DNA of 64,000 bases, from assembly GCA_002070115.1 (NCBI GenBank), contig MWCO01000024.1, positions 1 to 64,000 of the forward strand. The letters are read 5' to 3'. This DNA comes from Deltaproteobacteria bacterium ADurb.Bin207. GTDB taxonomy: Bacteria; Myxococcota_A; Polyangia; Polyangiales; Polyangiaceae. The notes below the pieces were generated by a model that saw only the letters and a program-made list of their open reading frames with translations, made no database searches and was not told where the DNA came from. The position numbers were made by a program, and so were the translations under genes. Of the stretch, positions 993 to 19,838 are shown in pieces (position 1 is the first letter of the stretch; each line of letters starts with the position of its first letter).

Positions 993-1880
993 TCATGCTT
1001 TCGTTCGGCTCGACGAAGCCGCGGGAGCATTCGAAGCCCGAGGTTGAAGCAGCGCTTGCAACCGAGAATCCAGGTCGATGCGCGCCTCACGCAGATGGCT
1101 TCCGGACCAGGCTTGTATCGTGACTTGTACGGCACCATTATCCATGACCGAGACGTCAAGGGCGGTTCCAGGCACCCGAAAAGGACTAAACAGTGCGGCT
1201 TGGCGCACCGCTTCGAGCGTGTCCGAGCCCGCGGGACGGTCCGGAATCATCTGAACCGTCGCGGATTGTGTGTTCTTCGCCTGCTCGACCTTCAGCGCTT
1301 CATGAAGAACGATACGATTGGGAATGAAGATGCTCGCTCCATCGGGACTTTGCAGATGAATCTGCGTCAAACTGATGTCTTTCACGATGCCAACTTGTCC
1401 CGCCACGGTGATACGATCCCCCGCGCGAATACGGCGTCGAAAAGCGATGACGAATCCAGCGCCAATATCTTGAATCGGCTGGGATAACACCAGAGTCATG
1501 GCGCCTGTCATGATGACCAGCGCCAATAGCGAAGCGATGGGAGCTGCCTCGAGAGCGCGTCGAACGAGCAACATGACCACCGCGATGATGATGATGACAT
1601 TGGCGGCGGAACGTGCCGGCGCGAGACGTCGTCGAGGGTCCAGACCCAGTTGCCAGCTAAGCACGACTCCGCTTTGAATGAGCCGAATCAACAACCAACC
1701 AACTCCCATGACCGCAAAAGCGATGAAAATGTCAGTCCACGCGAGTCGGTCGAGGACAGCGGCCCCTTCTCGCGATAGCTCCGCGGTCAATCCCTCCGGA
1801 ACGGGAGAGAGCGTTGGGTGGGAATGACATCCCGTAAGCAATCCCCCGAGCACGAGCGGCGAACCCCAACGACGGCTCAT
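993..1880 (-). CDS. MscS-family mechanosensitive channel-like lipoprotein
   Basis: The 295-residue protein begins with a lipoprotein-type signal (LLTGC, Cys18). Three hydrophobic segments follow at roughly residues 48-70, 88-106 and 115-140. The third leads into DIGAGFVIAFRRRIRAGDRI and a beta-rich domain with IPNRIV, the classic MscS pore-helix and beta-domain layout. MscS proteins are tension-gated channels of the inner membrane that release solutes on osmotic downshift. A lipobox in front of the first helix is unusual and would put the N-terminus in the periplasm. The start overlaps the stop of the upstream antiporter-ATPase gene by 4 bases, making this the last gene of a four-gene operon. 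Confidence 0.85.
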   Translation of the reverse strand: MSRRWGSPLVLGGLLTGCHSHPTLSPVPEGLTAELSREGAAVLDRLAWTDIFIAFAVMGVGWLLIRLIQSGVVLSWQLGLDPRRRLAPARSAANVIIIIAVVMLLVRRALEAAPIASLLALVIMTGAMTLVLSQPIQDIGAGFVIAFRRRIRAGDRITVAGQVGIVKDISLTQIHLQSPDGASIFIPNRIVLHEALKVEQAKNTQSATVQMIPDRPAGSDTLEAVRQAALFSPFRVPGTALDVSVMDNGAVQVTIQAWSGSHLREARIDLDSRLQALLQPRASNAPAASSSRTKA

Positions 1881-4800
1881 GACCAGGCTCCTCGGTTACG
1901 CAACGCCATCAGAATGGGTGGGCGAACGGCTTTGGGGATGATGAACTCGTTTTCGGAGCCTTCGGCGAGATCGAGCAACCCTGCCATGCGAAGAAACTCG
2001 ATGTGCCGCTCGGCAACCTCTGTCGTGGTGCCAATCCCAAGCGCGATTTCATGCGTGGTCATGGCACCGAAGCGGGCGAGATGAACGAGCATCGCGATCT
2101 CTCGAACGTTCATCTGATCGAGAAAAGGCAAGCCAACGTTCATTCCCTGGGGCATTTCCAACGTCACGAGATCGTCGTTTTCGAAGTGGACCGACCGTCG
2201 CCATAGCGCGATGGCTCGTTCCAGATTGCCTTCGCTATGACTCAACAATCCCCTGAAAAAGAGGGTGCGATCGCTGGAGGCGCGAAGACGTCCGAGCAGG
2301 CGCGTGGCGACCGTTTGGGGATAACGCACCTGCATTCCACTCAGCAGGTGACGTCCTTCGACGGCGCGAATGAGGTCATCGAGTTTCAGCGGGCGCAGCG
2401 TGATCACCTGGCCGAACGATGCGCGGATGGGAAGCGCCTCTTCGATGAGTCGAAGAGCTTCCGATTGAATGCTGATGAGCCAAAACACTTCTTCATGGGT
2501 TTGCGCGATGAGGCTGAGGAAACGTTCCAGATCGCGCATCCCCGCGGCGCTTGGTGTCAACCATTGCTCCAGATCATCGATGAATACGAGCGTACGAACT
2601 TGCCGCAGGGCGTGAGCCACGTGGCGCGCGCGAGGGGGACATTCAAGTTCGACCGCAAGCGCTCCGATGATCCCATGGCTCCGAAGGGTCATGCTTCGAT
2701 TGGGTCGTGCAAAACGCGGAGCCGACATCTCGATTTCGCATAAATTGAGCAACGAAGTGCGGCCGGAACCATGGGGGCCCACCAGCAATACGGAACCCGG
2801 AGAGCCTTGTTCCCACGCTCGTTCCGCTTCCAACAAGGCTTCGTAGGATGCCTCGTTGGCGGTAAAACGACGATAATCGCGTACGGGTTGGTCCTCGAAG
2901 AGTCGCGCGTAAGTATCCGGAATCGCAAGCGGAGCGCGCCAGCGACTCACGTACTTATGAATGCTGACCGCATCGAGCACCGGTTTTTCCAAACGTAAAC
3001 GAAGGTCTTTGGACAGCGCGCTGCCTCCGAATCGCTTCGCGATCTCCATCGCCCGCGCGCGATAGCGCAGCATTCGCATTTTGGCGGGAGCTACCAAAAT
3101 GGATAGCCGTTGCCGTAGCTGCGCTGACCATGTCGATGCCCCGGGTAGCTCCGGTCCCTCCGCTTTTTGCCCCGTGGCATCGGCCAACATGGCCCGGGAT
3201 ACCGACGTCACGCAATCCATCACCTCGCGCTGCAACCCTTCGGTCGTGCCGTGAACGTCGGCTTCCAACTCCCGCAACCGCTGTTCGACTTCCTCCAACG
3301 CCGACAAAAACTCCTCCACATGCGGCATTTCGTCATCCGGACCGTCACCAATGCCGTCCACCGAATCCAACGCCCAGTCGATGGCCTCTCGTACCCGCCC
3401 GTTGGAGCGAGAAAGCGAAAGGGAAGCTCGTTGCACGCAATCGTCGAGCGGTGGCAAAAATGACCAAAGCGTATGATGGGCCGCCAACGCGCGAAAATGA
3501 ATCGTCCGGGTGACAACGTCCCTGGCGCGCTGCACGTCCTGAAGATTCACAGAAGGGGGAAGAACCGTGAGTTCTTCCGGTAATTCGCGGACAACGGCTC
3601 TGAGATCGAGCGAGACATTGTGAATGGAAGCGGTGGGACGCAGATCTCCCACGCGATCGATCTGAAGCTCCTCTCGTTCGGGGTAGGCTTCACGACACGC
3701 CTGCTGGATGGCCTTCACATCCAGGACGAGATCAGGATTTTCTATGTTATTTCGAATAGTTGCAATTCTTTCGCGCACCGCCAGGATGATGGGCACCATC
3801 GTCTGCGCCGCGCTTTCGGAACGTTGGCTGATATGACGATCTACGGCATCGCGTGTCGTTCGATCGAGCCGTGCCAGGCATGCGGTGAGGTAGGGAGCCG
3901 CGCGAGCCGCTTCCATTTTCGAGAGCCAGGCACTCGGCTCTTCGTGCAATTTGCGAATGGCTTCACGCACTTGGGGCTCTACGGTCGAATACCGAAGCGT
4001 GGTGGTGGGCATCGTGGGAGAGCCAACCTCCGAGAGCGTTCGCGTCATGGTCGTCATTGCCGTAGATACGGCCATATCCAGGGAAGCGCGAACACGGCCG
4101 AGCCATGTTTCCATTTGCTCATCGGTTCGTTGCAGGACGTGGGCGAGGGATTCGGAGTCGCTGGCGAACGCGCTCAATTGATGAAGCATGCCTGCCTGCA
4201 TGGCGTACCAGGATTCCAGGACCGCAGCGCTGATGGCCGAAAGCGAAGGTTCGAGCGAGGATCGAGCCACCAGGCGCACGGGAATCGTGCGAACGGCAGG
4301 TTGTCGAAAAGCGAGTATCCATAACGAACGAAAGCGTTTGCGGATGAATAGGGCGATGGAATCATCCGACGATACGGCTAGTTGCGAAGCGTCGAGGTCC
4401 GCGGTGACATGGTCGGGAAGCGACGAAATGGGCGAGCGCAAGGATTCGAAGAGTTTTTTGCAGGTTTCGCCTTGTGCCGAAACATCGGGAAGGGTGATGG
4501 ATTCGAGCCAGACCTGGGGGGAGCCTCTGTCTTTGGCGATCATCGTTAGCGAATCGCGCAATTCGGAGCGAAAGGTGGCTGCCCAGGGTTCGAGGAGATC
4601 GCGATAAAAACCATCGACGGACTGGCGAAGATGCGTGTGCGTCTGTTGAGCCATCGAACGAAGCTTTTCGTTTTTTTCCTCGTCGATGGCGGCGGTAGCC
4701 CGTTCGATGGAAGCAGCGGCATCCGCTTCCGCTTTTTCGAGTGGTTCTTCGGGAATGACGCTGGGATGTTTGCTGGATGGTGCGGAGGAGCGGCGGCTGG

Positions 4801-6088
4801 CAGGAACGCCTTCGATATCCCCGGTGGCCCGAAGGGCATGGCGGAGGCTGATGGGGCCAATGAGCAAGTTGATGGCGACCATGGCCATGCCCGTGGTCGA
4901 GATAGGTCCGGCCAGGTCGGGCAATTGTTGCGCGGCGAGTCCTACCAAACCAAGAGTGACACCGGCTTGTGGGAGGTAGCCCAGCCAGGCGAAGCGACGG
5001 ACCTGGAAGTCTTCCTGGCCGACGGCGCCGCCTGCTCTTGCGCTGAGATAAAAAGCGATGGCTCGCGCGGCGCAAATCGCCAAAGCGAGGGGAAGAATCG
5101 TGAGGGTGGTTCGCAAGTCGACACTGGCGCCCGCATTGGTGAAAAACAGCACGAACACGGGGAGCGACACGAGAGAAAGCGGCGAAGCCAACTCTTCTTC
5201 ATGGTGCGAAAAGTTGCGCACGACGAAACCGGCGGTGATGAATACGAGCAGGATTTCGAGATGAAGGGCACGGCCGAGTTCAGAGACCACCAAAATCATG
5301 GCCGCCACGAAAAGCAGCATTTCCGCGCGGACATAACGAATATAAAGAATGAGAAGCACGCCCAAAACGCCGCCTGCCGCGATCGAACTCGCAATCTCCT
5401 TGCCGACATTGATGATGACCCGCGCATCGACTTCCGCATCCGGCGCAAGCAATGTGCGCGATACCGCAACCACCAACGCCAACAACGTCACGACCACCAA
5501 GTCCTTGAGTACCGCCGCTCCAAGGGCCAGGTCCGTCATCCGTCCCTTGGACTTCGTTTCATTGAGAACCGCCATCACGATGGCGGGTGATGTGGTCAAC
5601 GACAAAACACCGAGCACCAACGAAAGAGAAATCAGCTCTGCTTTCGACCCCAACTCGAGGGAACCCAACGCGGTTTGCACCGCAAGCAGCGTGGCGATCA
5701 CAAAACTCCCACTCAGGATTACCTTTACGCCCACCGTGGCGATCAAGGTTTTCCAAACGCGTCGCAACCGGCTCACGTCGAGTTCCAATCCCGCCCCCGT
5801 GGCAATCAAGCCAAGGGCAAGGGTGTTGAACATCTTCATCTCGACAACCACTTCCGACGACAGGATGTTCGCCGCCGCGGGACCCAACGCCAGACCGGCT
5901 ACGATATATCCCGTCACTTGCGGAAGCTGGAGCAGACTGCCCACCTCCGAAACCGTATAAGCCGCGAGGATCACGAAGCCGATGGCCGCCAGTGTCATGG
6001 GATCATGGGCTGCGCTTTGCGACGTTTGCAACGCCGTGATGGCGAGCATCATCGCGAGCAGCACACCAAGAACGACGATTCTTCTCAT
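1877..6088 (-). CDS. CPA2 cation:proton antiporter fused to a large C-terminal AAA+/STAND-like ATPase
   Basis: This is a 1403-residue protein. Residues about 1-425 form a Kef/NapA-type antiporter: many membrane helices, LPQVTGYIVAGLALGP, TSPAIVMAVLNE, and an LKD motif where many CPA proteins have ND or DD. Residues 430-1080 are a long, mostly helical soluble region that I do not recognise. A P-loop domain follows, with Walker A GPHGSGRTS at 1104-1112 and Walker B LVFIDD ending at Asp1171-Asp1172. The C-terminus looks like a winged helix (MTTHEIALGIGTTTEVAERH). Arg1110 occupies the usual Walker A lysine position. Kef-type antiporters normally end in a TrkA-N/RCK domain, so this tail is atypical. 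Start and stop overlap both neighbours by 4 bases. Confidence 0.85.
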   Translation of the reverse strand: MRRIVVLGVLLAMMLAITALQTSQSAAHDPMTLAAIGFVILAAYTVSEVGSLLQLPQVTGYIVAGLALGPAAANILSSEVVVEMKMFNTLALGLIATGAGLELDVSRLRRVWKTLIATVGVKVILSGSFVIATLLAVQTALGSLELGSKAELISLSLVLGVLSLTTSPAIVMAVLNETKSKGRMTDLALGAAVLKDLVVVTLLALVVAVSRTLLAPDAEVDARVIINVGKEIASSIAAGGVLGVLLILYIRYVRAEMLLFVAAMILVVSELGRALHLEILLVFITAGFVVRNFSHHEEELASPLSLVSLPVFVLFFTNAGASVDLRTTLTILPLALAICAARAIAFYLSARAGGAVGQEDFQVRRFAWLGYLPQAGVTLGLVGLAAQQLPDLAGPISTTGMAMVAINLLIGPISLRHALRATGDIEGVPASRRSSAPSSKHPSVIPEEPLEKAEADAAASIERATAAIDEEKNEKLRSMAQQTHTHLRQSVDGFYRDLLEPWAATFRSELRDSLTMIAKDRGSPQVWLESITLPDVSAQGETCKKLFESLRSPISSLPDHVTADLDASQLAVSSDDSIALFIRKRFRSLWILAFRQPAVRTIPVRLVARSSLEPSLSAISAAVLESWYAMQAGMLHQLSAFASDSESLAHVLQRTDEQMETWLGRVRASLDMAVSTAMTTMTRTLSEVGSPTMPTTTLRYSTVEPQVREAIRKLHEEPSAWLSKMEAARAAPYLTACLARLDRTTRDAVDRHISQRSESAAQTMVPIILAVRERIATIRNNIENPDLVLDVKAIQQACREAYPEREELQIDRVGDLRPTASIHNVSLDLRAVVRELPEELTVLPPSVNLQDVQRARDVVTRTIHFRALAAHHTLWSFLPPLDDCVQRASLSLSRSNGRVREAIDWALDSVDGIGDGPDDEMPHVEEFLSALEEVEQRLRELEADVHGTTEGLQREVMDCVTSVSRAMLADATGQKAEGPELPGASTWSAQLRQRLSILVAPAKMRMLRYRARAMEIAKRFGGSALSKDLRLRLEKPVLDAVSIHKYVSRWRAPLAIPDTYARLFEDQPVRDYRRFTANEASYEALLEAERAWEQGSPGSVLLVGPHGSGRTSLLNLCEIEMSAPRFARPNRSMTLRSHGIIGALAVELECPPRARHVAHALRQVRTLVFIDDLEQWLTPSAAGMRDLERFLSLIAQTHEEVFWLISIQSEALRLIEEALPIRASFGQVITLRPLKLDDLIRAVEGRHLLSGMQVRYPQTVATRLLGRLRASSDRTLFFRGLLSHSEGNLERAIALWRRSVHFENDDLVTLEMPQGMNVGLPFLDQMNVREIAMLVHLARFGAMTTHEIALGIGTTTEVAERHIEFLRMAGLLDLAEGSENEFIIPKAVRPPILMALRNRGAWS

Positions 6089-7365
6089 GACGCCCGCCTC
6101 GTCGAAGCTGGTAGTGAGTCATGGGCCGATTCACCTGCATCGAGCAAAACCGACCGCAACGAGCGCGCGCTCCACAAATCACTGACGAGGGTTCCCGCCA
6201 ATACGGTTGTCAAAACACTGGCGGAATAATGCGGAAAACGCTGAGAAAAATCGACTCCTATGGCCACCGCCATGGTTCCTTGGGACAGAAGTCCCAGACC
6301 TATTCTTGGCGATAGGACATGGCTCGGAGCTACCACGCGGACGGTCAAACGCGTGAAAGCTCGTCGGACCGCGTAACGCACGGCGATATAGAAGATTGGC
6401 AATAACCAGACCCAGCCTTCGACAGGAGCCCAAAGCGCTCCGCCGAAAATCATGATGAGCACGAACAACGGGTGCTGGAGACGATCCAATTCATCGCGCA
6501 ACCTTTGGGTGTGTCGCGAGGTGAGTGCGACGGTGATACCTGCCACGAGGTTGACGAATAGCGGCGATAGTCCGAGGGCCGTTCCCACGCCCGAGGCGAA
6601 AATGACCGCTCCCGCCGTGGCAAGAAAGATGCGCACGGCGTCTTTTTCTTGTCCAATGAATAGCGTGAATAAAAGCCCGCAGATGACTCCCACGACGACC
6701 GCGGTCAGAAGCGCCATTCCGGCGGAAAGCCCAACTCCTGTCGCGGTGTCTGTCGATCGAGCGGTGGTTGCGGCCACGCCCACGACGATCACGGCGAGCA
6801 CCTGACTCAACGTCGCGGAGCCGTGGAGCAATTCTGTCACCGGACCGCTCGCTTTGAGCATTCGAGCCGCGGAATCGATTACGAAAGGAGAGGCTACGCA
6901 CGCGGCGGCGCCCAACGCCAACGACATCCAAAGATGACTCGTGGACAAGGTCAGCACGAGCGCGTGGCGCTGGGTTCGAAAGATCTCCCACTCGAAGTGC
7001 AACGAGCCCGGCGCCGGCACAAGGAGACGATCCGCCAAAAACAGCATGGCTCCGGCAACGATGAGCAATACGAACGTCGCGGAAACAAGACCCACCATCG
7101 TGATTCGCAGGTTTCGAAATACATCGCGGGTGTGCAGAGCAACCACGAATCCCACCAAACCAAGCAATAACGCGATGAATGGCTCCAGCAACGCCAGAGA
7201 GTCATGGGTCATGAGCCGGGGAGGCACTTGAGGGCCGATCAACAGACCCACGAGCAAGTATTCCGCACCGGACAAGGCGATGTAACGCGATACGTAGCGA
7301 GTCAGTAAATGCCCGAAAGCAAAGCTGAAAATGACGACCAGGACGAGCAGGATGGTCACGCTCAT
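6085..7365 (-). CDS. Cation:proton antiporter-like membrane protein
   Basis: The 426-residue polytopic protein resembles the membrane domain of CPA-type Na+(K+)/H+ antiporters, with about 12 hydrophobic segments and the N-terminal SGAEYLLVGLLIGP motif found at the first discontinuous helix of this family. No cytoplasmic nucleotide-binding domain is present, and the canonical Asp-Asp or Asn-Asp ion-binding pair is not obvious. It lies between the asparaginase-like lipoprotein gene and the antiporter-ATPase gene, overlapping each by 4 bases. A heteromeric transporter of the two antiporter proteins is a reasonable inference but is not shown by the sequence. Confidence 0.8.
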   Translation of the reverse strand: MSVTILLVLVVIFSFAFGHLLTRYVSRYIALSGAEYLLVGLLIGPQVPPRLMTHDSLALLEPFIALLLGLVGFVVALHTRDVFRNLRITMVGLVSATFVLLIVAGAMLFLADRLLVPAPGSLHFEWEIFRTQRHALVLTLSTSHLWMSLALGAAACVASPFVIDSAARMLKASGPVTELLHGSATLSQVLAVIVVGVAATTARSTDTATGVGLSAGMALLTAVVVGVICGLLFTLFIGQEKDAVRIFLATAGAVIFASGVGTALGLSPLFVNLVAGITVALTSRHTQRLRDELDRLQHPLFVLIMIFGGALWAPVEGWVWLLPIFYIAVRYAVRRAFTRLTVRVVAPSHVLSPRIGLGLLSQGTMAVAIGVDFSQRFPHYSASVLTTVLAGTLVSDLWSARSLRSVLLDAGESAHDSLPASTRRAS

Positions 7366-8717
7366 GGTTCACTCGCCTGGATAGGGGTAGGCGTATTCGG
7401 GGCGCTGGGCAAAAAGCCCCAAGCGACAGGTCCGCGCGAGCCCATGCGGAACGTGTCGCGATCGACTGCGACGATGGCTAGGGTCGTATCTTTGGGCGTA
7501 GCTTCGAGACCGTAGACAACGGCTTGGGTCGTGGATTGGCTTTCGATCATCTGCTCGTACACCGCGCGAGCAAGCTGGATACGAAGGAGCAAGGGACTTG
7601 GGCCGCTGATCGCGACCGCTCCGTTTTGTCCCACGAACAACGCAGCGCCCGGGATGCCGGCCGCTCCGATTTCTCCGGGTAGCGCAAGGGATGAGCCTCC
7701 CCCGCTCGCCGCCCCCGCAAATTGCCCTTCGGCGGTCCGAAGCACTACCGCGGCATTGTGGTAAGCTATTGTATTTACAGATGAATGTTGAGAATCGGAG
7801 GCCCCCTCTCCGTCCCGCTCCCGACCTGCATCCGCCATCGAGGCCACTTCCCATTGACGCTGCGCGCGCGAAGACCAGGCGTCGAATGCGGGATGACCGT
7901 GGGCGCGAGCAAACGACGTCGCACCGGGGCCTCCCATCATCGCAAGCTGTGAATTAGCGACATCCAGAGCAACTTTGACAGGGTTTCGCACCAACCCCAG
8001 ATTCGTTACCGCTCCGAAATTGCCGCTCGAGTCCCAAACCATGGCGTCCATCAGGATCGATAACCCATCCTGGCGAAGTGCTGACCCTCGTCCAGCATTG
8101 AAAGCGCCATCGTCTTCCAACGCGGCAACGGCTCTGGTTACCGCGGCCAGAGGCTTGGAGCCTTCGGCGAGTGCAAGCATGCTTTGCTGCAAAGCTTTTT
8201 GAACGTCTCGACTCAGGCTTGGGTCTGCACCGGAGCCTCCGATTCCGAGCACGACCCATCCTGAATGTCCCGGTGTTGCCTTTGACGGCTGGGAAGGCGC
8301 GGAGGAATGCGGGGGTGGTGTACTAGAGCTTGCTTCGGGCAAAAGGAGAGCGGTTGAGGTATCCGGTGTGGGAGCCGAAGAGGCAGCGGGAGCTGGCGCG
8401 GAAGCACTTGCCAAGGCAGAAGCGGTAGAAGCAGCAGGAGTCGTCAACGAAGCGGATGGAGGCGCCGGCGGCTTTAGCGCGGAAGAAATGGCAGCGGACG
8501 CGTGGGAGTTCATGGGAGCCAAAGGGACAGCCCCAGCCACGGAACCAGAGGATGCGTCTGGCATCGAAGCCTCCGTTTGGGTTTCCGCCAGACTGCGAAG
8601 TCGACAGCTTCCCGCTCCCAGGCTTGCCACGGCCAGCACAAAAACAGCCGCCATCACGCGTTTTTCCGGACGAAAGCGCGGGGATTGTCGCTCGTTCGAT
8701 CGGGGTGAGCCACACAC
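7362..8717 (-). CDS. Asparaginase/isoaspartyl-peptidase-like lipoprotein with altered active site
   Basis: The 451-residue protein starts with a positively charged leader and lipobox GAGSC (about residue 38). A long Ala/Ser/Pro-rich linker leads to a family-2 asparaginase (Ntn-hydrolase) domain from about residue 165, including FNAGRGSALRQDG and LPGEIG. In an ungapped alignment with E. coli IaaA the nucleophilic Thr179 falls on Asn321, with Thr316 five residues upstream. Substrate-binding Arg207 and Asp210 become Glu349 and Ala352. It may therefore be inactive or act on something else. A GTG at 8717 is preferred because it supplies the charged signal-peptide start; ATG 8654 is the alternative. 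It is the first gene of the operon reading to 993. Confidence 0.8.
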   Translation of the reverse strand: MCGSPRSNERQSPRFRPEKRVMAAVFVLAVASLGAGSCRLRSLAETQTEASMPDASSGSVAGAVPLAPMNSHASAAISSALKPPAPPSASLTTPAASTASALASASAPAPAASSAPTPDTSTALLLPEASSSTPPPHSSAPSQPSKATPGHSGWVVLGIGGSGADPSLSRDVQKALQQSMLALAEGSKPLAAVTRAVAALEDDGAFNAGRGSALRQDGLSILMDAMVWDSSGNFGAVTNLGLVRNPVKVALDVANSQLAMMGGPGATSFARAHGHPAFDAWSSRAQRQWEVASMADAGRERDGEGASDSQHSSVNTIAYHNAAVVLRTAEGQFAGAASGGGSSLALPGEIGAAGIPGAALFVGQNGAVAISGPSPLLLRIQLARAVYEQMIESQSTTQAVVYGLEATPKDTTLAIVAVDRDTFRMGSRGPVAWGFLPSAPNTPTPIQASEP

Positions 8718-10031: not shown

Positions 10032-10175
10032 AAACACGACACCCAGGCGCTCGCTGTTGCCAGCACCTCTGGAAATCTCAGGATGATAGATTCACCTTGT
10101 AGGTGCAGGTGGTTCGCGGATCGATCTGCCGATTCGAGGCTGCCGATGGGATGGATTTCACGCTACACTACGCGA

Positions 10176-12191
10176 ATGTCGCGCTGTTCTCGTTCTTTGC
10201 TCATAGGTAGCCTCGGGGCGGCCTTGTTGTGGAACACTCCCGCCTCGGCCGTGATCACCCAGGTGGATGGAACCGTCCTGCCGGTTAGCGATCGCCTTCA
10301 AATTGCGCTCGATCGCTCGGTGGCGCTGGGGGGGGAGGGGACTCCAGGGCTCCTTCATGCCGTTTTCGATGCGGATATCGTGCCGGAGGTCTTTCAAATC
10401 CCCAAAAATAGCAATGGGAAGTATCGCGTGGTGGAGTTTTTCGACATCGAAGAGGGCGCGGGATACGAAAATACCATCGGTTGGTACAACGTCTCCGACC
10501 CCTCCACCCTCTATCCCGTGTTGAACTGCGCTCATGAACCACCGAACAAAGTCAATGTCGATTTCCAAAAAGAATTCGATGATGGCCGATACAAAGGAGG
10601 ATTCGTGGGATTTTTCCTTGTGTCGCCGGGAAGCAATGGCGGATGTGGCAACCCCGCCAACCTCGGGCAGCCCGGTAGCACAGCGTTCATCGTCTATACC
10701 GAAGCGCAGCTCAACGGTGATGGCAACTACGTCCACTATCTCATCTACCAATCCAAACAAAACCCCTTGGCCTATTACTTCGGCTTCGAGGATCTTTGGC
10801 GTGGCGGCGACAACGACTTCGAAGACATGGCGGTCAAGGTCACGGGCCTCATCAAAGCCTGCGAACCATCACCTGAGATTTGTGATGGAAAAGACAATAA
10901 CTGTGATGGCCTGGTCGACAACGAGCCCGTGGACGTGGGTCAAGCTTGCGTGACCATTTCGGGCAACAAACCTGGCTTCGGCGCTTGTCAAGCAGGGATT
11001 CTGGAATGTGCAAGCAAGGGGCCTGGGGATACGACCAAAATATGTGTTGGTGAGGTCGGCCCTGGTATCGAAGTGTGCAACGGTCTGGATGACGATTGTA
11101 ACGGGATCGTCGACGACAACCCAACCGATCCGTCGCTTGGAAAACCGTGTGGGGGCTCGGATGAAGGGGAATGCCAGCGAGGCACCTATGCGTGCTTGGC
11201 GGGCACCATTGCGTGTGTGGGCGTAGTGGGACCTTCACCAGAGCTTTGTGATGGCAAGGACAACGATTGCGATGGGGTGGTGGATGGCACGGCGCTGGAG
11301 CCGAGGCAAAACTGCAAAAACGATGGGGATTGCTCGACGAGCGCGCCGTATTGTCTCCCGACCGTACTCGGAGAAATGGTTTGTGCGCGCGGTCCCATCG
11401 ATGTGGTGGGGCAATGTACCGTATCGGGGTCGACCTGCCCTGGGGTCAAACGATGTGAGAACGGTACAGTCATTTGTGAGCAATCCGATCCGGGAACCCC
11501 AGAAATCTGCAATGGCGCGGATGATAATTGTAACGGGCTGGTGGATGAGGGAGATCCAGGAGGTGGCGCGGAGTGTGGTCCAGGAGGAATTTCGCTGGAA
11601 ATGGCGAGGACCGGGCAATGTGAACCGGGGATCGAACATTGTTTGGGTGGAAAGATTCAGTGTGTCGGGGGAAGGGGCCCCACGCCCGAAATCTGTGATG
11701 GTCTCGACAACGATTGTGATGGTCTCACCGATGAGACGGCGGAATGTCCTGGAGAGAGCATTTGTGTGGAAGGAAAGTGCGTGGAGCCTTGCGCCGGCGG
11801 CGAATTCCCTTGTCCCGCCGGACTGGTTTGCGTGGACGGATATTGTGTCAAATTGGGTGGGGGTACCGGAGGCTCTGGTCACGATGCGGGAACGCAGGAC
11901 GATGGTGCGGCAGGACAAAATGGGGAAGCTGGTGTGGACGCTTCGGCTGGCGCAGCAGGGACAGCCGGCTCCGGAGGGACAGCCGGTTCCGGAGGGGGAT
12001 TCCGACCGGATGGGGGAGCCTCACCAGGGCCACACGAGCAGAGCCGAGAAAATTGGGGATTGGTGACGGGCGGCGGTGGCGTGTCCTGTGCCCTTGGACG
12101 GGCCACCTCTTCGCTACCGGCTGCCATCGTTGCCCTCTTTGCTCTCGCCATGGCAGGACGAATGAGCCCTCGTACCGGGAGGAAAGGATAA
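10176..12191 (+). CDS. Secreted MopRP metal-binding-repeat protein with DUF4114 domain
   Basis: The 671-residue exported protein has a signal peptide (SLLIGSLGAALLWNTPASA). A DUF4114-like domain covers about residues 130-230, ending in FGFEDLWRGGDNDFEDMAV, an acidic motif likely to bind calcium. Five copies of the MopRP motif (C-D/N-G-x-D-[DN]-[DN]-C-[DN]-G) follow. After a Gly/Ala/Ser-rich linker the protein ends in GGVSC, a hydrophobic helix and basic residues, resembling a MYXO-CTERM surface-anchoring tail. The start is set at ATG 10176 because the signal peptide begins there; an in-frame start lies upstream at 10083. The stop overlaps the next gene by one base (TAATG), so the two are co-translated. 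Confidence 0.85.
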   Translation: MSRCSRSLLIGSLGAALLWNTPASAVITQVDGTVLPVSDRLQIALDRSVALGGEGTPGLLHAVFDADIVPEVFQIPKNSNGKYRVVEFFDIEEGAGYENTIGWYNVSDPSTLYPVLNCAHEPPNKVNVDFQKEFDDGRYKGGFVGFFLVSPGSNGGCGNPANLGQPGSTAFIVYTEAQLNGDGNYVHYLIYQSKQNPLAYYFGFEDLWRGGDNDFEDMAVKVTGLIKACEPSPEICDGKDNNCDGLVDNEPVDVGQACVTISGNKPGFGACQAGILECASKGPGDTTKICVGEVGPGIEVCNGLDDDCNGIVDDNPTDPSLGKPCGGSDEGECQRGTYACLAGTIACVGVVGPSPELCDGKDNDCDGVVDGTALEPRQNCKNDGDCSTSAPYCLPTVLGEMVCARGPIDVVGQCTVSGSTCPGVKRCENGTVICEQSDPGTPEICNGADDNCNGLVDEGDPGGGAECGPGGISLEMARTGQCEPGIEHCLGGKIQCVGGRGPTPEICDGLDNDCDGLTDETAECPGESICVEGKCVEPCAGGEFPCPAGLVCVDGYCVKLGGGTGGSGHDAGTQDDGAAGQNGEAGVDASAGAAGTAGSGGTAGSGGGFRPDGGASPGPHEQSRENWGLVTGGGGVSCALGRATSSLPAAIVALFALAMAGRMSPRTGRKG

Positions 12192-14419
12192 TGAAAATCT
12201 ATACTTACCTACTCCTCCCGTTGTTCGCGGGCATTGTGTCCGGCTCCTTTGCTTGCACCACCGAATCGTATTGTTTCGATTGCGAACACGCGGCGGCCGG
12301 GGCGGCTGGTTCCTCTGGCTCTCCCGGAACGGGCGGCAGCGGTGCAAGCGGCGTCCTCGATGCCTCCTTCGACAACGTCTTCATCGATTCCAATTCGTGT
12401 AACGCCGACCTCGACAACGATCCGCTCAATTGTGGATTCTGCGGCCACGTTTGCGAAATCCCCAACGCGTATGCCATGTGCAAGGACAAATTCTGCGTCA
12501 TCGATCGCTGCGCTTCGGGCTATTACGATATCAATGGCAAGGTCGAAGACGGATGCGAATACGAATGCGAACCTTTGCGCGATACCCAGGGCAATCCCGT
12601 TACCGAAGAAACGCTTTGCAATGGCATCGATGACGATTGCGATGGCTTGATCGACGAGGTTTTCGATCTCGAAAGCGACGCGCAGCATTGTGGCGGCTGC
12701 AATCAAGCTTGCCAGGATTTGTATCCGCATGCCAAGACGATTTGTGAGAACGGGGCCTGTGCTTTCGGCGGTTGTTTACCGGGATTTCATGATGTCGACG
12801 GCTTGCTTGCCACCGGATGCGAGTATGAATGTACGCCTGGTAATCCCGCGGTGGAGGCGTGCAATGGCATCGACGATGATTGCAACGGTTTTGTGGACGA
12901 TGGCGTATTGCCCGGGGTTGGGGAATCCTGTGGAAGCAATGTCGGCGCGTGCAAGTTCGGCAAGCAACAATGCGTGGGTGGTTCGCTCATTTGTGTAGGG
13001 GATACGAAACCGTCGACCGAGTTATGCGATGGGATCGACAACGACTGTAACGGAAAGACGGATGAGATTTGTCCAACCGCCAAGTCTCCCGTGCGGTTGG
13101 ATGTAGGTGGTTCGGCGCAAGGCCAGCATTCGACGACGCAACTCAGCATGGCGACGCAAGGCGATGCTACGTTTGCTGCGTACTTGGATCGAAGAATGGC
13201 AAGCAATGGGGCGGATATTCGGCTCAACTACACCTTGACGGCCAACGGGGCATGGTTGACCTCGGACATGGTGGTGGCGGGCACGGCAGCCAGCGAGGTG
13301 GAGCCGTGGGTTTTCACTTCGCCTACCAAGCTCTATGTGGCGTATGAACTCTTCATTGCCGGAGACGTGCGTCGTATCCAACTCGCCCGAACGGGGATTT
13401 CACCTACGACCTGGACCACCATACAAGCGGAAAAAAGCGCTCCGGCCTCATCGGATTCCTTTTATGTTCGCGGTATCGTGGCGGGTCAAGCCGCGGGAGC
13501 CGACCAAATCGTGTTGGTATGGCAGACGCTTCAAGGCACGAATCGTGACATTTACTTGCAGGCGTCCAACGATGGTGGCGTAACATGGCGAGCGAGCGAC
13601 CTTCGCGTCAATGCCGTCGCGGGAAAGGCGGAACTGCCGGATCTCGCTTCCGATGGGAAAGGACGGGCGTTCGTGGTGTGGCGGGATGCGCGAGGCACCG
13701 TACCGGAAGTGTATTTCGCTACCTATGATGTGGCGTCGGCAACCCTGGGAGCCAACAAAAAGCTTTCTTCGGGGGATGCCACGAAGCCTGCTGTGATCGC
13801 TGCGGATGACCAAAACAATGTGCATGTGGCGTGGACGCAGCTTCCTTCTTCGGGCGCGAAAACCATACGTGTGGCGACGAGTGTGAATCGTGGCGATACG
13901 TTTGTTGTTGGGGTGGTCGACAATACGCCAGTTTTTGCCGATGCGGATTCTCCGCATATCGTGGCGAGGGCGGGGCGCGCTGCCGTGGCTTGGGAAGACA
14001 ATCGTTCGGGTCTATCGGATGTTTATGTCAACGTATGGGCATCGGGAGCTTGGCGTTCCCAGGCTGCTCGCGCCGATGGGGGACCTCGGGGAGCCTATCG
14101 CTCCACGCAACCTCGTATTGCCTTCGGGGCTGGCAACCGATTGTTCGTGACGTACCAGGAGTATCGAGGCACTGGCAGCAACAACCAGGCGGATGTTCAC
14201 GTGAACTTCTCTCTCGATGGTGGCGTCACATTCCAGCCCAAGGATACGAGGGTCGACCCAGGGGCGGTTGGATTGGCGGATTCCACTTCCCCAAGGCTCA
14301 GCGTACCTGGAACTTCGGGACCCGGCATTCACCCGATTGTCATCTGGCTCGACAACTTCAATGGCACGACCGCTTCGCAGAATGCGGATGTGTACGCAGC
14401 ACGCGTCGAATTCCCTTGA
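12191..14419 (+). CDS. Secreted MopRP and BNR/sialidase-like repeat protein
   Basis: The 742-residue exported protein has a hydrophobic leader ending near FACTTE, possibly a weak lipobox. A Gly/Ser-rich linker is followed by Cys-rich segments (DNDPLNCGFCGHVCEIPNA) typical of myxobacterial surface proteins. Three MopRP motifs lie around residues 140-305. The C-terminal 430 residues look like a beta-propeller, with Asp-box-like turns (SNDGGVTW, SLDGGVTF) as in BNR/sialidase-like proteins. No catalytic sialidase residues were recognised, so a binding role is more likely than hydrolysis. ATG 12191 follows AAAGGA and overlaps the upstream stop. The two MopRP proteins are probably made together and displayed at the surface. 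Confidence 0.82.
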   Translation: MKIYTYLLLPLFAGIVSGSFACTTESYCFDCEHAAAGAAGSSGSPGTGGSGASGVLDASFDNVFIDSNSCNADLDNDPLNCGFCGHVCEIPNAYAMCKDKFCVIDRCASGYYDINGKVEDGCEYECEPLRDTQGNPVTEETLCNGIDDDCDGLIDEVFDLESDAQHCGGCNQACQDLYPHAKTICENGACAFGGCLPGFHDVDGLLATGCEYECTPGNPAVEACNGIDDDCNGFVDDGVLPGVGESCGSNVGACKFGKQQCVGGSLICVGDTKPSTELCDGIDNDCNGKTDEICPTAKSPVRLDVGGSAQGQHSTTQLSMATQGDATFAAYLDRRMASNGADIRLNYTLTANGAWLTSDMVVAGTAASEVEPWVFTSPTKLYVAYELFIAGDVRRIQLARTGISPTTWTTIQAEKSAPASSDSFYVRGIVAGQAAGADQIVLVWQTLQGTNRDIYLQASNDGGVTWRASDLRVNAVAGKAELPDLASDGKGRAFVVWRDARGTVPEVYFATYDVASATLGANKKLSSGDATKPAVIAADDQNNVHVAWTQLPSSGAKTIRVATSVNRGDTFVVGVVDNTPVFADADSPHIVARAGRAAVAWEDNRSGLSDVYVNVWASGAWRSQAARADGGPRGAYRSTQPRIAFGAGNRLFVTYQEYRGTGSNNQADVHVNFSLDGGVTFQPKDTRVDPGAVGLADSTSPRLSVPGTSGPGIHPIVIWLDNFNGTTASQNADVYAARVEFP

Positions 14420-14677: not shown

Positions 14678-16021
14678 ATGAGGCGAACGTTTCGTGGTGG
14701 AGTTCATCCTCGCGACCACAAGGAGCTGACTTGTGAAAAACCGATCCGTTCCTTACCCAGCCCCGACAAGGTCGTGCTCCCCTTGCGTCAGCATGTCGGC
14801 GCGCCGGCCCGATGTATCGTCAAGGTAGGCGATCATGTCGCGCAAGGACAGCCCATCGCCGAAGCCGTGGGCCATGTCTCTGCTCCTGTGCATGCCTCGA
14901 TGGCCGGTGTGGTTCGGACCATCGGAAAGCACTTGCATCCCGCCGGTTTCGAATGCGAAGCCGTGACGTTGGAAGCGCATGCCGAAGACGATGCAAAGCG
15001 CCCCTCTTCCCCTTATCGATTGCCGAACGCCAGACCTGACTATACGAATACGGATAGTGAGGAGCTTCGAGCCCTCATCCAATCTGCCGGGATCGTGGGG
15101 GCCGGAGGCGCCGGCTTCCCCACCCACGTCAAGCTCGCCCCTCCCAAAGACAAACCCGTCGACACGCTGATCATCAACGCTGCCGAATGCGAGCCTTATC
15201 TGACGTGCGATCACCGCACCATGCTCGAAGAATCCGAAATCGTCGCCCATGGAGTCCGCATCGCAAAGCGCATTCTCGGTGTCGATCGCGTGCTTGTCGG
15301 TATCGAAGACAACAAGCTCGATGCCGTGCAAGTCATGAAAAAGGCTTTCGCCAACGATCCCGCGGTCGAGGTCGCCGTTCTTTCCGTCAAATACCCTCAG
15401 GGCGGTGAAAAACAACTTATCGAAGCGTTGACCGGACGACAGGTGCCTCCGCCTCCGGGGCTGCCCATGGATGCGGGTTGTGTCGTACAAAACGTCACGA
15501 CCTGCGCCGCCATCGCACGCGCCGTGATGCAAGGGATTCCCGTATTCGAACGGGTGATCACGTTGGCCGGTTCGATGGTTAACGACCCGGGCAATGTTCG
15601 TGTCCCTATCGGGATGCTGCTGAGCGATGTCATCGACCGGGTGGGCGGCCTCGCCGAGCCACCTTCGAAAGTGATCATGGGCGGTCCGATGATGGGCCTT
15701 GCCATGGCCGAACTCGATGTGCCCATCGTCAAAGCGACCTCGGGATTCGTGTTTTTATCGAAAAATCAGGTCAAAACCGTACTTCCCAGTCCGTGTATCC
15801 GCTGCGGACGTTGCGCCGCGGCTTGTCCTCTTCATTTGCAACCGGGGGAAATCGCGCGCTGGGTCGAGCTGGGAAACCTGGACGCCGCCAGCGCTCTGCA
15901 CCTGATGGACTGCATGGAATGCGGCACGTGCAGCTATATCTGTCCCTCCTATCGCTGGCTGGTTCAGCAAATCCGGCTTGGTAAGGCAAAAGTCCATGAA
16001 CGAAAACAACCCTCCGCCTGA
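14678..16021 (+). CDS. rnfC: Rnf electron transport complex subunit RnfC
   Basis: The 447-residue RnfC is the peripheral NADH-binding subunit of the Rnf complex, which couples electron transfer between ferredoxin and NAD+ to ion movement across the inner membrane. The N-terminus has FRGGVHPRDHKELT, matching the family start. A glycine-rich flavin/NADH region (GIVGAGGAGFPTHVKL) lies near residue 140. Two ferredoxin-type 4Fe-4S motifs sit at the C-terminus, with cysteines at 373/376/379/383 and from 412. Its 3' end overlaps rnfD. It opens the gene order C-D-G-E-A-B, which is the arrangement of acetogens and many anaerobes, whereas E. coli has A-B-C-D-G-E. Confidence 0.95.
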   Translation: MRRTFRGGVHPRDHKELTCEKPIRSLPSPDKVVLPLRQHVGAPARCIVKVGDHVAQGQPIAEAVGHVSAPVHASMAGVVRTIGKHLHPAGFECEAVTLEAHAEDDAKRPSSPYRLPNARPDYTNTDSEELRALIQSAGIVGAGGAGFPTHVKLAPPKDKPVDTLIINAAECEPYLTCDHRTMLEESEIVAHGVRIAKRILGVDRVLVGIEDNKLDAVQVMKKAFANDPAVEVAVLSVKYPQGGEKQLIEALTGRQVPPPPGLPMDAGCVVQNVTTCAAIARAVMQGIPVFERVITLAGSMVNDPGNVRVPIGMLLSDVIDRVGGLAEPPSKVIMGGPMMGLAMAELDVPIVKATSGFVFLSKNQVKTVLPSPCIRCGRCAAACPLHLQPGEIARWVELGNLDAASALHLMDCMECGTCSYICPSYRWLVQQIRLGKAKVHERKQPSA

Positions 16022-17048
16022 GCCGAAGGCCATGGAACCTGTCCAACCATCGCCCCTTCGGCTTTTGGTTGGGACCTCTCCCCACGTGCATGCCGAGCAA
16101 GGCGTCCCGGAGATCATGCGCTGGGTCGTGCTGGCTCTGCTGCCTGCCGTGGCCGTCTCGTTATGGTCCTTCGGCCTCGAGGCGTTGCGGGTTTACGTTC
16201 TCGCCGTGGGCGCTTGCTTGGCTATCGAGTGGATTTGCCTCCGGATTTTCAAGACTCCCGGGAGCCTGGCCGATGGATCCGCCGCCGTGACCGGCGTTCT
16301 TCTCGCCATGAATCTGCCTCCCACCTCGCCGTCGTGGATGGTGCTCATCGGCGCGGTGGTGGCCATCGTTTTCGCAAAGCATCTGTTTGGCGGTTTGGGC
16401 AGCAATATTTTCAATCCCGCGCTCACCGCCCGTGTATTTCTACTCATTTCCTGGCCCGTTTCCATGACCACCTGGCTCAAAGTCGGCGAGCGAGGCTTCA
16501 TTTCTCCAAGCGCGGACCTGCAAGCCATCACCCAACCCACCCCCCTTGGCATGCTGAAGGTGGGCGAACTTCAATCGGTCGCCACGGAAGCTGGAGAGTG
16601 GCTCTTGCGCGATGAAGGAGGCTCCCTTGGCGAGGTATCCGCACTGGCGTTGGTGCTCGGCGGGGTGTGCTTGCTCTGGAAACGCATCATCACCTGGGAA
16701 ATCCCTGTCTTTTTCATAGGCACCACCGTTGTATTCACCGCCGCGGCTTGGCTCATCGACCCATCCTCATACGCCTCTCCGCTCACCCACGCGCTGTCGG
16801 GTGGCTTGCTGCTCGGCGCCATCTTCATGGCCACCGATATGGTGACCTCTCCCGGAACCTTCCAAGGACGCGTGATTTTCGCCATCGGATGCGGGCTGCT
16901 GACCGCCATCATTCGGCTCTGGGGCGGCTATCCCGAAGGGGTTAGTTTCGCCATCCTCCTGATGAATGGCCTCACCCCGCTCATCGATAGGCTCGTTCGC
17001 CCACGACCCCACGGCGCGATGGCGCCGAGCCGCAAGGTGCCAGCATGA
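15996..17048 (+). CDS. rnfD: Rnf complex membrane subunit RnfD
   Basis: The 350-residue integral membrane protein has about nine hydrophobic segments and is homologous to NqrB. The motif ATDMVTSPGTF carries Thr284 in the context used for covalent FMN attachment, so it is a likely ApbE substrate. The conserved GGLGSNIFNPALTARVF loop is present. ATG 15996 is chosen: AAGG lies about 9 bases upstream, and it lies inside the 3' end of rnfC (26-base overlap). A TTG further upstream is less likely. The stop overlaps rnfG by 4 bases. RnfD forms the ion-translocating membrane core with RnfA and RnfE. Confidence 0.95.
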   Translation: MNENNPPPEPKAMEPVQPSPLRLLVGTSPHVHAEQGVPEIMRWVVLALLPAVAVSLWSFGLEALRVYVLAVGACLAIEWICLRIFKTPGSLADGSAAVTGVLLAMNLPPTSPSWMVLIGAVVAIVFAKHLFGGLGSNIFNPALTARVFLLISWPVSMTTWLKVGERGFISPSADLQAITQPTPLGMLKVGELQSVATEAGEWLLRDEGGSLGEVSALALVLGGVCLLWKRIITWEIPVFFIGTTVVFTAAAWLIDPSSYASPLTHALSGGLLLGAIFMATDMVTSPGTFQGRVIFAIGCGLLTAIIRLWGGYPEGVSFAILLMNGLTPLIDRLVRPRPHGAMAPSRKVPA

Positions 17049-17659
17049 AAACCGCGCTTCATTATGTCGGTGTGTTGGCGCTGATTTGCGCCATGGCCGC
17101 CGGATTGCTCGCCACCGTCCACGAAATCACCTCCGAACCCATCGCTTCTTCCCGAAAACGGGTCACCCTGGAAGCCGTCCGCACGGTGCTTCCCCCTTTC
17201 GAAACCCTAGCGGACGCCGAAACCGTCAAAACCATCGTGACCGACCCATCGGCTCCCGAAATGGCAGCCGCCTTTTCCGCTGGTCGACTCATCGGAGCTG
17301 CCGTGAAAGTAACCGACCCGGATGGTTTTGGCGGCGATGTAACGTTCATGGTGGGGGTGACCTCCGACGCCAAAGTCCATGCGATTCGGCTACTTGCCCA
17401 CAAGGAAACCCCAGGCCTTGGCACCAAGCTCGGGGATCCAATATTTACCAAGCAATTTCAAGGACTTGCGATTCCAGCGGGAGGCCTGCGCGTCCACAAA
17501 GACGGCGGCACCATCCAGGCGATCACGGGTGCGACCATTTCGAGTCGGACGGCGACTCGTGCGGCGACTCGTGCGGTCGAGCACTTCGAAAAAGTAAAAA
17601 ATCAGCTAGCGCAGGCCGCTTCCCAGGCCCAACCCGCGCAAGGAGGTCCTCGTGGCTGA
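17045..17659 (+). CDS. rnfG: Rnf complex flavoprotein subunit RnfG
   Basis: The 204-residue protein has one N-terminal membrane anchor (residues 7-24) and an FMN-binding domain facing the periplasm. The motif [10 protein letters not shown] provides Thr164 for phosphoester-linked FMN, the classical RnfG/NqrC flavinylation site. The preceding stretch [12 protein letters not shown] is also typical of the FMN-binding domain. The start overlaps rnfD (ATGA). It passes electrons between RnfD and the other redox subunits. The apbE gene at the end of the same operon should install the flavin. Confidence 0.95.
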
Positions 17660-18272
17660 AAGGACCGCTTCCCAGGAATTCCAAAAAGGATTGCTCCGCG
17701 AGAACCCCCTTTTCGTTCTCGCCCTCGGCATGTGTCCTTCCCTGGCCGTGACCACCAGCCTGTTCAACGGCATCGGCATGGGATTGGCCGCAACCTTCGT
17801 GCTCGTCTGCTCCAATGCCGTCATCTCCTTGCTGCGAAACTTCATTCCCAAAGGCGTTCGCATCCCAGCTTATATCGTCGTCATCGCCTCGTTCGTCACC
17901 GTCGTGGAAATGCTCATGGAGGCGTATGTCTTCGACTTGCATCAAGCCCTCGGCGTGTTCATCCCCCTTATCGTCGTCAACTGCATCATCCTCGGCCGTG
18001 CCGAGGCATTTGCTTCCCGGAATGGACTGTGGCGGTCGGTTCTCGACGGATTGGGGATGGGGCTTGGGTTTACGTTAGCGCTTGTATCGATGGGGACGGT
18101 GCGTGAAATTCTTGGAAACGGGACGCTTCTTTCCGGCACGCCGTTCGAGTTGACCGTGTTGGGTGAGGGATTCAAGGCCAATCCGGTGCTCGTGATGGTG
18201 CTTCCTCCGGGCGCGTTCTTTACCTTGGCGGTGTTGATGGCGGGGGCCAACCGCTGGATGAGGAGGGCCTGA
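17652..18272 (+). CDS. rnfE: Rnf complex membrane subunit RnfE
   Basis: The 206-residue membrane protein of the RnfA/RnfE/NqrD/NqrE family has six predicted helices. Family landmarks include [20 protein letters not shown] and [20 protein letters not shown]. The conserved cysteines within helices help form an intramembrane iron-sulfur site with RnfA, according to structures of related complexes. Translation starts at GTG 17652 after a strong AGGAGGT (17641-17647), overlapping rnfG by 8 bases. RnfA follows 2 bases after the stop. Confidence 0.95.
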
Positions 18273-18274
18273 CC

Positions 18275-18871
18275 ATGGAACTATCCTTCGGCCAGATTCT
18301 ACAGCTTATCGTCTGGGCGGTTTTCGTCAACAACTTCATCCTCGCGCAATTCCTTGGGATTTGCCCTTTCCTGGGGGTTAGCAAAAAAACCGAATCCGCC
18401 GTGGGCATGAGCTTGGCCGTGATCTTCGTCATGACCGTGGCTGCTGCCGTCACGTGGCTGCTGAATCAATACGTTCTCGTGCCCTTGGGACTGGTTTTTC
18501 TCAAAACCATCCTTTTCATCCTTGTCATCGCCGCTCTCGTGCAATTCGTGGAAATGGTGATCAAGAAGATGTCGCCCGCGCTGTTTCAGGCTTTGGGTAT
18601 CTTTTTGCCTCTCATCACCACGAATTGTGCGGTGCTGGGAGCGGCGTTGCTCGCCATTCAGAAAGATTTTTCGTTCTTCACCACCCTGATTTACGCCTTC
18701 GCTTCTTCCCTCGGCTTCGGGCTCGTCATGGTCCTTTTTGCGGGCATCCGTGAGCGGATGGACACCACCATCGAAACCCCGGCAGGAATGCGGGGGTTGC
18801 CCGTCACCCTGGTGGCGGCTGGCATTCTTTCTCTGGCATTTCTTGGGTTTGCGGGCCTGGTCAAGATGTGA
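18275..18871 (+). CDS. rnfA: Rnf complex membrane subunit RnfA
   Basis: The 198-residue protein has six hydrophobic helices and is paralogous to RnfE with inverted topology. Signature segments are NNFILAQFLGICPFLGVSKK and LPLITTNCAVLGAALL. Cysteines in the first and fourth helices are those expected to share an iron-sulfur cluster with RnfE at the centre of the membrane. ATG 18275 follows rnfE by 2 bases, with GAGGAGGG just upstream. It is followed by rnfB after 13 bases. Confidence 0.96.
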   Translation: MELSFGQILQLIVWAVFVNNFILAQFLGICPFLGVSKKTESAVGMSLAVIFVMTVAAAVTWLLNQYVLVPLGLVFLKTILFILVIAALVQFVEMVIKKMSPALFQALGIFLPLITTNCAVLGAALLAIQKDFSFFTTLIYAFASSLGFGLVMVLFAGIRERMDTTIETPAGMRGLPVTLVAAGILSLAFLGFAGLVKM

Positions 18872-18884
18872 GGAGAGCATCACC

Positions 18885-19838
18885 GTGGATTGGAACACCA
18901 TCCTGATAAGCACGGGCACGCTGGGAGGCATCGGCGCGGCCGCGGCGGCTTTGCTCGCGGGAGCCTCCCGAGTCCTGCGTGTAGAAGAAGATCCGCGCAT
19001 CGAACAAGTCACCGAAGCCTTGCCTGGCGCCAATTGCGGCGGCTGCGGGTTCCCTGGCTGCGCAGGATTCGCCGAAGCCGTCGTCGCCGGAAAAGCCGAC
19101 CCCACCCTCTGCGCTCCCGGTGGGGCCGCTATCGCCCAAACCATTGGCGATATCCTCGGAATCACCGTCGAAGCCAAACAACGACAGGTCGCAAGATTAC
19201 GCTGCCAGGGCAGCAAGGACCGCGCCGTGGTGCGCGTGACCTACGATGGCATGACAAGTTGCAAAGCCGTCTCCCTTCTCGTTCCCCTGGGCACCAAAAA
19301 ATGCGCCCAGGCCTGCGAGGGGCTGGGCGATTGTGTGGCCGTCTGCGTTTTCGATGCCATTCGAATGGGCGACGATGGGCTGCCCGTCGTCGATGAACAG
19401 GCTTGCACGGGCTGCGGCAAATGCGTGACCGAATGCCCTAAATCCGTATTGATTCTACACCCTTACGACGAAAAACTATCTGTCGGCTGTGGCAACCAGG
19501 TCGCGCCGAAGCTGGTTCGAAAAGTCTGTGAAGTTGGCTGCTTGCACTGCCGGGTTTGCGTGCGAACCTGCCCCTACGATGCCTTGCAATGGGAAGGCAA
19601 TCTGCCGAAGCGCATCGACGGCAAATGCAAAATGTGCGGCTTGTGCGTGGAGGCTTGCAAAACCCAGGTATTGCATTTCGCCTCTGGATTCGAAGTCGAC
19701 CCGCAAGCCAAAGAGCAAGCCAAGCGCCTTCTGGCCGAGCGTAAAGCCGCCGAAGCCGCCAAAAAAGCCGCCCAACGAACCAAACCCAAAGAAACGAAAG
19801 ACCCCGCCTCTGCCCCCGTCGGAGGAGAGCCGTCGTGA
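18885..19838 (+). CDS. rnfB: Rnf complex ferredoxin-type subunit RnfB, extended form
   Basis: The 317-residue subunit starts with one membrane anchor (residues 4-24). Next is the RnfB-specific cluster motif GANCGGCGFPGCAGFAEAVV, then four further ferredoxin-like cysteine groups (CAQACEGLGDC, CTGCGKCVTECP, CLHCRVCVRTCP, CKMCGLCVEAC). Proteobacterial RnfB usually has two such C-terminal clusters; the expanded set resembles clostridial and acetogen RnfB. It is the entry or exit point for ferredoxin electrons. A Lys/Ala-rich tail follows. GTG 18885 is chosen because AGGAGAG lies at 18871-18877 and the protein then begins at the membrane anchor. Confidence 0.94.
   Translation: MDWNTILISTGTLGGIGAAAAALLAGASRVLRVEEDPRIEQVTEALPGANCGGCGFPGCAGFAEAVVAGKADPTLCAPGGAAIAQTIGDILGITVEAKQRQVARLRCQGSKDRAVVRVTYDGMTSCKAVSLLVPLGTKKCAQACEGLGDCVAVCVFDAIRMGDDGLPVVDEQACTGCGKCVTECPKSVLILHPYDEKLSVGCGNQVAPKLVRKVCEVGCLHCRVCVRTCPYDALQWEGNLPKRIDGKCKMCGLCVEACKTQVLHFASGFEVDPQAKEQAKRLLAERKAAEAAKKAAQRTKPKETKDPASAPVGGEPS

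Follow-up and report, generated by a model that had tools for sequence, protein, structure and literature searches.

An AAA+-type module carried by three unrelated membrane proteins in Myxococcota is encoded beside MscS-family channels and may link them to K+ transport

In a stretch of 64,000 nucleotides from Deltaproteobacteria bacterium ADurb.Bin207 (contig MWCO01000024.1, positions 1 to 64,000 of the forward strand), called the window here, one gene joins an antiporter-like membrane domain to a long tail that contains a P-loop domain. An earlier note on this DNA took it for a possible new type of transporter regulation. Is the fusion genuine, and what might such a tail do on an ion transporter? 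The genes concerned are the following.

993..1880, minus strand: predicted MscS-family channel, 295 aa (PF00924; adjacency; nearest solved relatives MscK and MscS)
1877..6088, minus strand: fusion gene, CPA2-like antiporter, helical region, AAA+ P-loop domain and winged helix (open frame, fused relatives)
4829..5956, minus strand: antiporter membrane domain, fusion residues 45-420 (PF00999, TIGR00932, motif alignment)
6085..7365, minus strand: ANT2, second antiporter-like protein, 426 aa (phmmer paralogue, conserved upstream partner, motif)
7362..8717, minus strand: Asparaginase_2-like gene (PF01112, E 5e-36; a similar gene in the same place in locus L024)

The fusion frame runs from 6088 to 1877 on the minus strand, with an ATG start and 1403 amino acids uninterrupted by a stop. 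It overlaps both neighbours by 4 nt, the ANT2 gene before it and the MscS gene after it. The Asparaginase_2-like gene overlaps the ANT2 gene by 4 nt as well, and is probably co-transcribed. That a frameshift or a misassembly had joined two genes, the worry raised with the first reading, was ruled out: an orthologue fused over its full length, with 43% identity, is present in genome G015, and the same antiporter-tail fusion was found at about 40 Myxococcota loci, one of them in a single-contig assembly (G178). A first scan of genome contigs with the window protein as query gave no match. Because about 40 loci carry the same fusion and the tail is modelled with a pLDDT of 86, we conclude that the 1403-residue protein is real and not an assembly artefact. 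Elsewhere in the window, two large secreted-looking proteins with many tandem Cys-rich CDGxDNDCDGxxD repeats lie at 10083-14419; by eye, an Rnf electron-transport-like cluster with RnfC-, RnfD- and RnfB-like ORFs was seen at 14678-19838, and an AspT/YidE-type transporter-like ORF with RCK_C-like domains at 59182-60762.

The membrane domain matches the Pfam Na_H_Exchanger model PF00999 over residues 45-420 (E 8.6e-24, 84.5 bits against a cut-off of 26.2). With the CPA2 model TIGR00932 the score stays under the cut-off of 238.3 (56 bits, E 4e-15), and, judged from these matches, the domain is a distant member of the superfamily and not a standard CPA2 protein. The TSPA and LKD motifs are intact, and motif alignment places the ion-binding Asp of the core helix at Asp196; this Asp is retained in most ANT1 rows of the alignment. 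Going by the family, the transported ion would be K+. ANT2, which gave no match in a Pfam search, is a paralogue of the fusion membrane domain (phmmer E 2e-12), and is probably the partner subunit of an antiporter dimer. In the window ANT2 has SQ in place of KD, so that the ion-binding Asp is replaced and the protein may partner the fused antiporter without transporting ions itself. Its nearest relatives also lack the core Asp (SQ or TE), while in other ANT2 rows an Asp is retained. Standalone ANT1 genes without a tail also adjoin ANT2 in many relatives, which means that the tail is dispensable for the antiporter pair; it seems to have been added to an ANT1-ANT2 pair that is more widespread. 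At L043:8550-12843 an ANT2-ANT1 pair without AAA tail has a 575-aa MscS-family gene upstream (marginal PF00924 score), and this arrangement suggests that the link between antiporter and MscS may predate the tail.

The distribution of the tail was followed with a profile of its AAA-winged-helix part (A1), which at E up to 1e-8 matched 143 of the 379 Myxococcota genomes sampled. Eighty further loci, picked by module score and length with their neighbours disregarded, were retrieved and annotated with home-built profiles. Three membrane hosts were found. Class A, to which the window belongs, is the antiporter with its tail (41 loci). Class B consists of a signal peptide, a helical region, a TM region and the AAA-winged-helix part (25 loci, one of them from Photobacterium). 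Class C is an SLC12 cation-chloride cotransporter followed by a tail of about 970 aa (15 loci); its N-terminal domain matches human NKCC1 with E about 1e-61 and Pfam AA_permease with 8e-45, and the SLC12 C-terminal domain is matched weakly. Profile comparison showed that classes A and C have the entire tail in common, helical middle included (963 columns, E 6e-57), and that the similarity to class B is limited to the AAA-winged-helix part (349 columns, E 8e-36). In a tree of the ATPase part, classes B and C form supported groups (99 and 100, respectively), and class A is one side of a weakly supported branch. The window's genome has a second cassette, of class B, at L004:3942-8076 (contig 87; 1083 aa and 283 aa); a further MscS gene lies near it on the opposite strand (L004:10044-11912). 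The taxonomic survey proposed earlier thus finds the antiporter fusion at some 40 Myxococcota loci, and the module in at least one further phylum, Pseudomonadota, where 16 of 399 genomes have it at E up to 1e-15. Three plasmid records carry it too, from Novosphingobium pentaromativorans US6-1, Caulobacter sp. NIBR2454 and Novosphingobium sp. PP1Y.

What these loci share besides the module is the gene that follows it. In the window this gene is, on its domain, predicted to encode an MscS-family channel: the MS_channel beta domain PF00924 was found with E 1e-12 (48.4 bits against 20.2), and among solved structures MscK is the nearest (E 1.9e-17). Adjacency was counted by the position of the domain; longer overlapping ORFs mask some MscS genes. 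Of the 78 Myxococcota loci with sufficient sequence for the count, 77 have an MscS domain that starts under 1 kb downstream in the same orientation (37 of 38 in class A, 22 of 22 in class B, 15 of 15 in class C, and 3 of 3 loci left unclassed in the first pass); in the sole exception an MscS lies 2.1 kb downstream. The two genes often overlap by 4 nt. MscS is likewise next in all 16 Pseudomonadota loci and in all three plasmid copies, where the records of US6-1 and NIBR2454 annotate it and a profile detects it in that of Novosphingobium sp. PP1Y. No MscS adjoins two further, far weaker matches in the Photobacterium genome (E 8e-8 and 3e-6). The window's genome holds only six PF00924 matches, and each of its two AAA modules directly precedes one of them.

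The channels follow the classes of their modules. The same classes are recovered in the MscS tree, with a support of 100 for B, 99 for C and 97 for a ten-member group containing the window. Pairwise distances for MscS and ATPase are correlated (Mantel r 0.85, the largest of 999 permutations being 0.14), and r is 0.77-0.95 within classes, an agreement that partly reflects shared species history. Shared history does not explain the class-specific pairing of paralogous cassettes, which holds within single genomes (e.g. G026, G275 and G379, with A, B and C). Taken on balance, we think that the tail is a regulatory module coupling transporters of K+ or KCl with an MscS-family channel dedicated to them, for the control of turgor and K+. 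Conserved gene order could, against this, reflect co-expression alone. The neighbours would then serve osmotic stress as independent parts, and the tail would regulate its own transporter only; the existence of ANT1 without a tail agrees with this, as does the failure to find any ORF joining AAA and MscS. We nevertheless consider such independence improbable, given that adjacency is nearly strict for three unrelated hosts and in two phyla, and that the MscS partners are specific to each class.

The structure of the tail was then considered, and its parts are as follows.

2939..4801, minus strand: helical middle, fusion residues 430-1050, about 600 residues (profile match to the class C tail, helical model)
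2129..2866, minus strand: AAA+ (Cdc6/Orc-RuvB-like) P-loop domain, residues ~1075-1320 (Foldseek, class B profile match)
2756..2779, minus strand: Walker A GPHGSGRT, residues 1104-1111, with Lys replaced by Arg
2573..2590, minus strand: Walker B LVFIDD, residues 1167-1172
1895..2128, minus strand: C-terminal winged helix, residues ~1321-1398 (AlphaFold model; HTH_5 in the orthologue at L024)

The AlphaFold2 model of residues 430-1403 (pLDDT 86.3, pTM 0.78) predicts an alpha/beta P-loop core followed by a C-terminal winged helix. Foldseek matched it to RuvB, Cdc6/Orc1 and Orc4, with a best E of 1.8e-6, and the class B model likewise to Cdc6/Orc1 and RuvB. The P-loop fold on which the first reading had staked itself is therefore present in the C-terminal part. 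The label STAND-like fared less clearly, as STAND proteins (CED-4, plant NLRs) are also among the matches of the window model and the two groups of folds are not separable here. On the window protein alone the Pfam AAA score is under the cut-off (AAA_16, 17.3 bits against 32.6); class B and C relatives are above it (AAA_16 41.7 bits, AAA_22 46.8), and class C passes the AAA_16 model and fails nSTAND. No family for the tail was found in Pfam, NCBIfam or PADLOC. The helical middle has no Pfam match and no PDB sequence match, and the top 50 Foldseek matches of the window tail comprise AAA+/STAND-type folds only, with no other fold for this region; the profile comparison of the whole tail nonetheless tied this region to the tail of the SLC12 fusion. 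A possible two-fold repeat, with the motif LPxxxxV ... V/IPxRxLxR occurring twice, was noticed at window 3173-4801 (residues 430-972); it is weak, hhalign giving E 7.5e-5 and a probability of 62% in one comparison. An RCK domain in the tail was looked for and rejected, no TrkA_N/KTN match being obtained with Pfam up to E 1.

The winged helix, which had been called probable, is borne out both by the model and by an HTH_5 match above cut-off in the L024 orthologue (24.8 bits against 22). It raises the question of whether the protein might be a membrane-tethered transcription regulator, with the winged helix binding DNA, the transporter acting as sensor, and the operon or osmotic genes as targets. 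The HTH_5 match would fit, and the nearest structures, Cdc6/Orc and RuvB, are DNA-binding. Winged helices of AAA+ and STAND proteins often do not bind DNA, however, and the C-terminal region differs strongly between classes. DNA binding would also leave the near-invariant MscS partner and the matched trees without explanation, and we judge this reading to be decidedly unlikely.

We examined next whether the ATP site is of the hydrolysing type. Walker B ends exactly at Asp1171-1172, as had been read from the sequence; Walker A was also correctly placed, but its canonical Lys is an Arg. The Thr and the Asp-Asp are intact in the window. Four catalytic residues were scored (Walker A Lys and Ser/Thr, and the two acidic residues of Walker B), and the full set is present in 19 of 23 sequences of class B and in 9 of 14 of class C, compared to 2 of 41 in class A, where ten sequences have Arg for the Walker Lys. 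Since class A mostly lacks the complete set, the antiporter branch has drifted away from a hydrolysing enzyme while keeping the fold, and with such a degenerate site a nucleotide sensor or scaffold is likelier there than a motor. The class A tail, that of the window included, is thus probably a sensor or scaffold, and the idea of an ATP-responsive switch, put forward earlier, becomes doubtful for this class. ATP hydrolysis may drive a conformational change in classes B and C, where the site is mostly intact.

The intact site of class B, together with the AAA+ fold and an operon strictly shared with a channel that is oligomeric, could belong to an assembly or quality-control chaperone, with a part in the folding or assembly of the MscS heptamer or of the transporter complex. 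The covalent fusion to transporters argues against such a role, and so does the fact that class A has lost catalytic residues. A chaperone is in our opinion unlikely, and counts with the tethered regulator and plain co-expression among the strongest rivals of a coupling module.

Coupling of transport to the channel, the reading that we favour, is also in keeping with the genes around the cassette. The operon of most class A loci runs ANT2, TrkA (with two RCK units), TrkH, fusion and MscS; the window and a few other class A loci have no Trk genes in the cassette, and in the window's genome a TrkH gene with a TrkA_N gene beside it lies on another contig. The contrast drawn with Kef systems and their RCK domains thus holds for the fusion itself, but not for the surroundings of most relatives, in which a two-RCK TrkA is encoded upstream. 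In Photobacterium sp. GB-56 (L136:4941-9150) a voltage-gated-type K+ channel gene directly precedes the class B AAA-MscS pair; an upstream K+ channel gene was seen in this locus only. A link to ion flux, also foreseen in the earlier note, is supported by operons holding TrkA, TrkH, a second antiporter and MscS, and by the same tail on SLC12.

The same note had speculated on a danger-sensing defence valve, a STAND-like sensor opening an ion channel upon phage attack. A P-loop with a winged helix does resemble STAND sensors, CED-4 and NLR being among the Foldseek matches, and the partner is an ion channel. PADLOC models gave no match up to E 1, though, no class B module was found in phages, and a plasmid search with the window protein gave none either. 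The stable inheritance with K+ transport genes and the degenerate ATP site speak against it as well, and we hold a defence role to be very unlikely.

If the tail does couple transporter and channel, the module would sit in the cytoplasm under the transporter, and would bind the MscS protein or otherwise set its opening. The nucleotide state, or a bound signal, would act on transporter and channel at once, and K+ exit via the antiporter would not be independent of solute release via the channel. The decay of the class A ATP site argues against one ATP-driven mechanism shared by all classes. We infer the contact between module and MscS, as well as the interdependence of transport and channel and the direction of control, from the arrangement described above. 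In its most specific form, the proposal is that an AAA+-type module physically joins K+/KCl secondary transporters to MscS channels and gates them together, that it was re-used on unrelated membrane proteins, and that in the antiporter branch it turned from a motor into a non-hydrolysing sensor. This form we put forward tentatively, as a possibility that falls short of even chances.

By function, the tail belongs with Kef KTN and Trk/Ktr RCK, regulatory domains of K+ transporters that bind nucleotides. For bacterial K+ transporters the known regulators are chiefly RCK/KTN domains and small partners, and MscS channels are taken to respond above all to membrane tension. The window protein resembles Kef (CPA2 with KTN/RCK, and KefF/KefG) in that a cytosolic domain of nucleotide-binding type comes after the CPA2-type membrane domain. 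It differs in carrying a helical region and an AAA+ winged helix instead of TrkA_N/RCK, and its partners are an MscS channel and ANT2, with an asparaginase neighbour, and no KefF/KefG. In the Kef system too, the operon partner gene overlaps by a few bases (PMC10224563). TrkAH and KtrAB are likewise nucleotide-regulated K+ transport systems, and TrkA and TrkH are in the operon of most class A relatives; their regulator is an RCK ring, whereas here it is AAA+-like and covalently attached to the antiporter. MscK (KefA), the closest solved relative of the MscS partner, links K+ and mechanosensitivity, its activation being reported to need external K+ (PMC9653487). It is a single chain whose N-terminal part is large, in contrast to the short channel with a separate AAA+ neighbour found here; for the class B model, the top Foldseek matches concerned the AAA part only, and MscK, with its N-terminus, was not among them. 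Class C proteins are like SLC12 (NKCC, KCC) in their N-terminal domain, and differ by the extra tail with its AAA+ domain and by the adjoining MscS gene, as seen for example at L031, L036 and L087. Cdc6/Orc1, RuvB and STAND ATPases share the P-loop core and winged-helix fold, but here the module is fused to membrane proteins, its class A ATP site is degenerate, and what it has in common with the DNA-binding members is the fold.

We know of no counterpart for an AAA+-type module that three unrelated membrane proteins carry and that nearly always has an MscS gene as its neighbour. The suggestion of a new type of transporter regulation has so far stood up, as none like it was found in Pfam, NCBIfam or the literature searched; that search covered open-access papers, and a description elsewhere is possible. 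Physical coupling, if true, would be a new kind of system. The class B cassette, being compact (two genes; WP_007014233.1 and WP_039857743.1 in US6-1), makes it directly testable, and the bacterial SLC12 proteins, which are related to human NKCC and KCC, would gain a regulatory partner that can be tested. Some bacteria would then tie active K+/KCl transport to emergency solute release by means of a nucleotide-binding machine.
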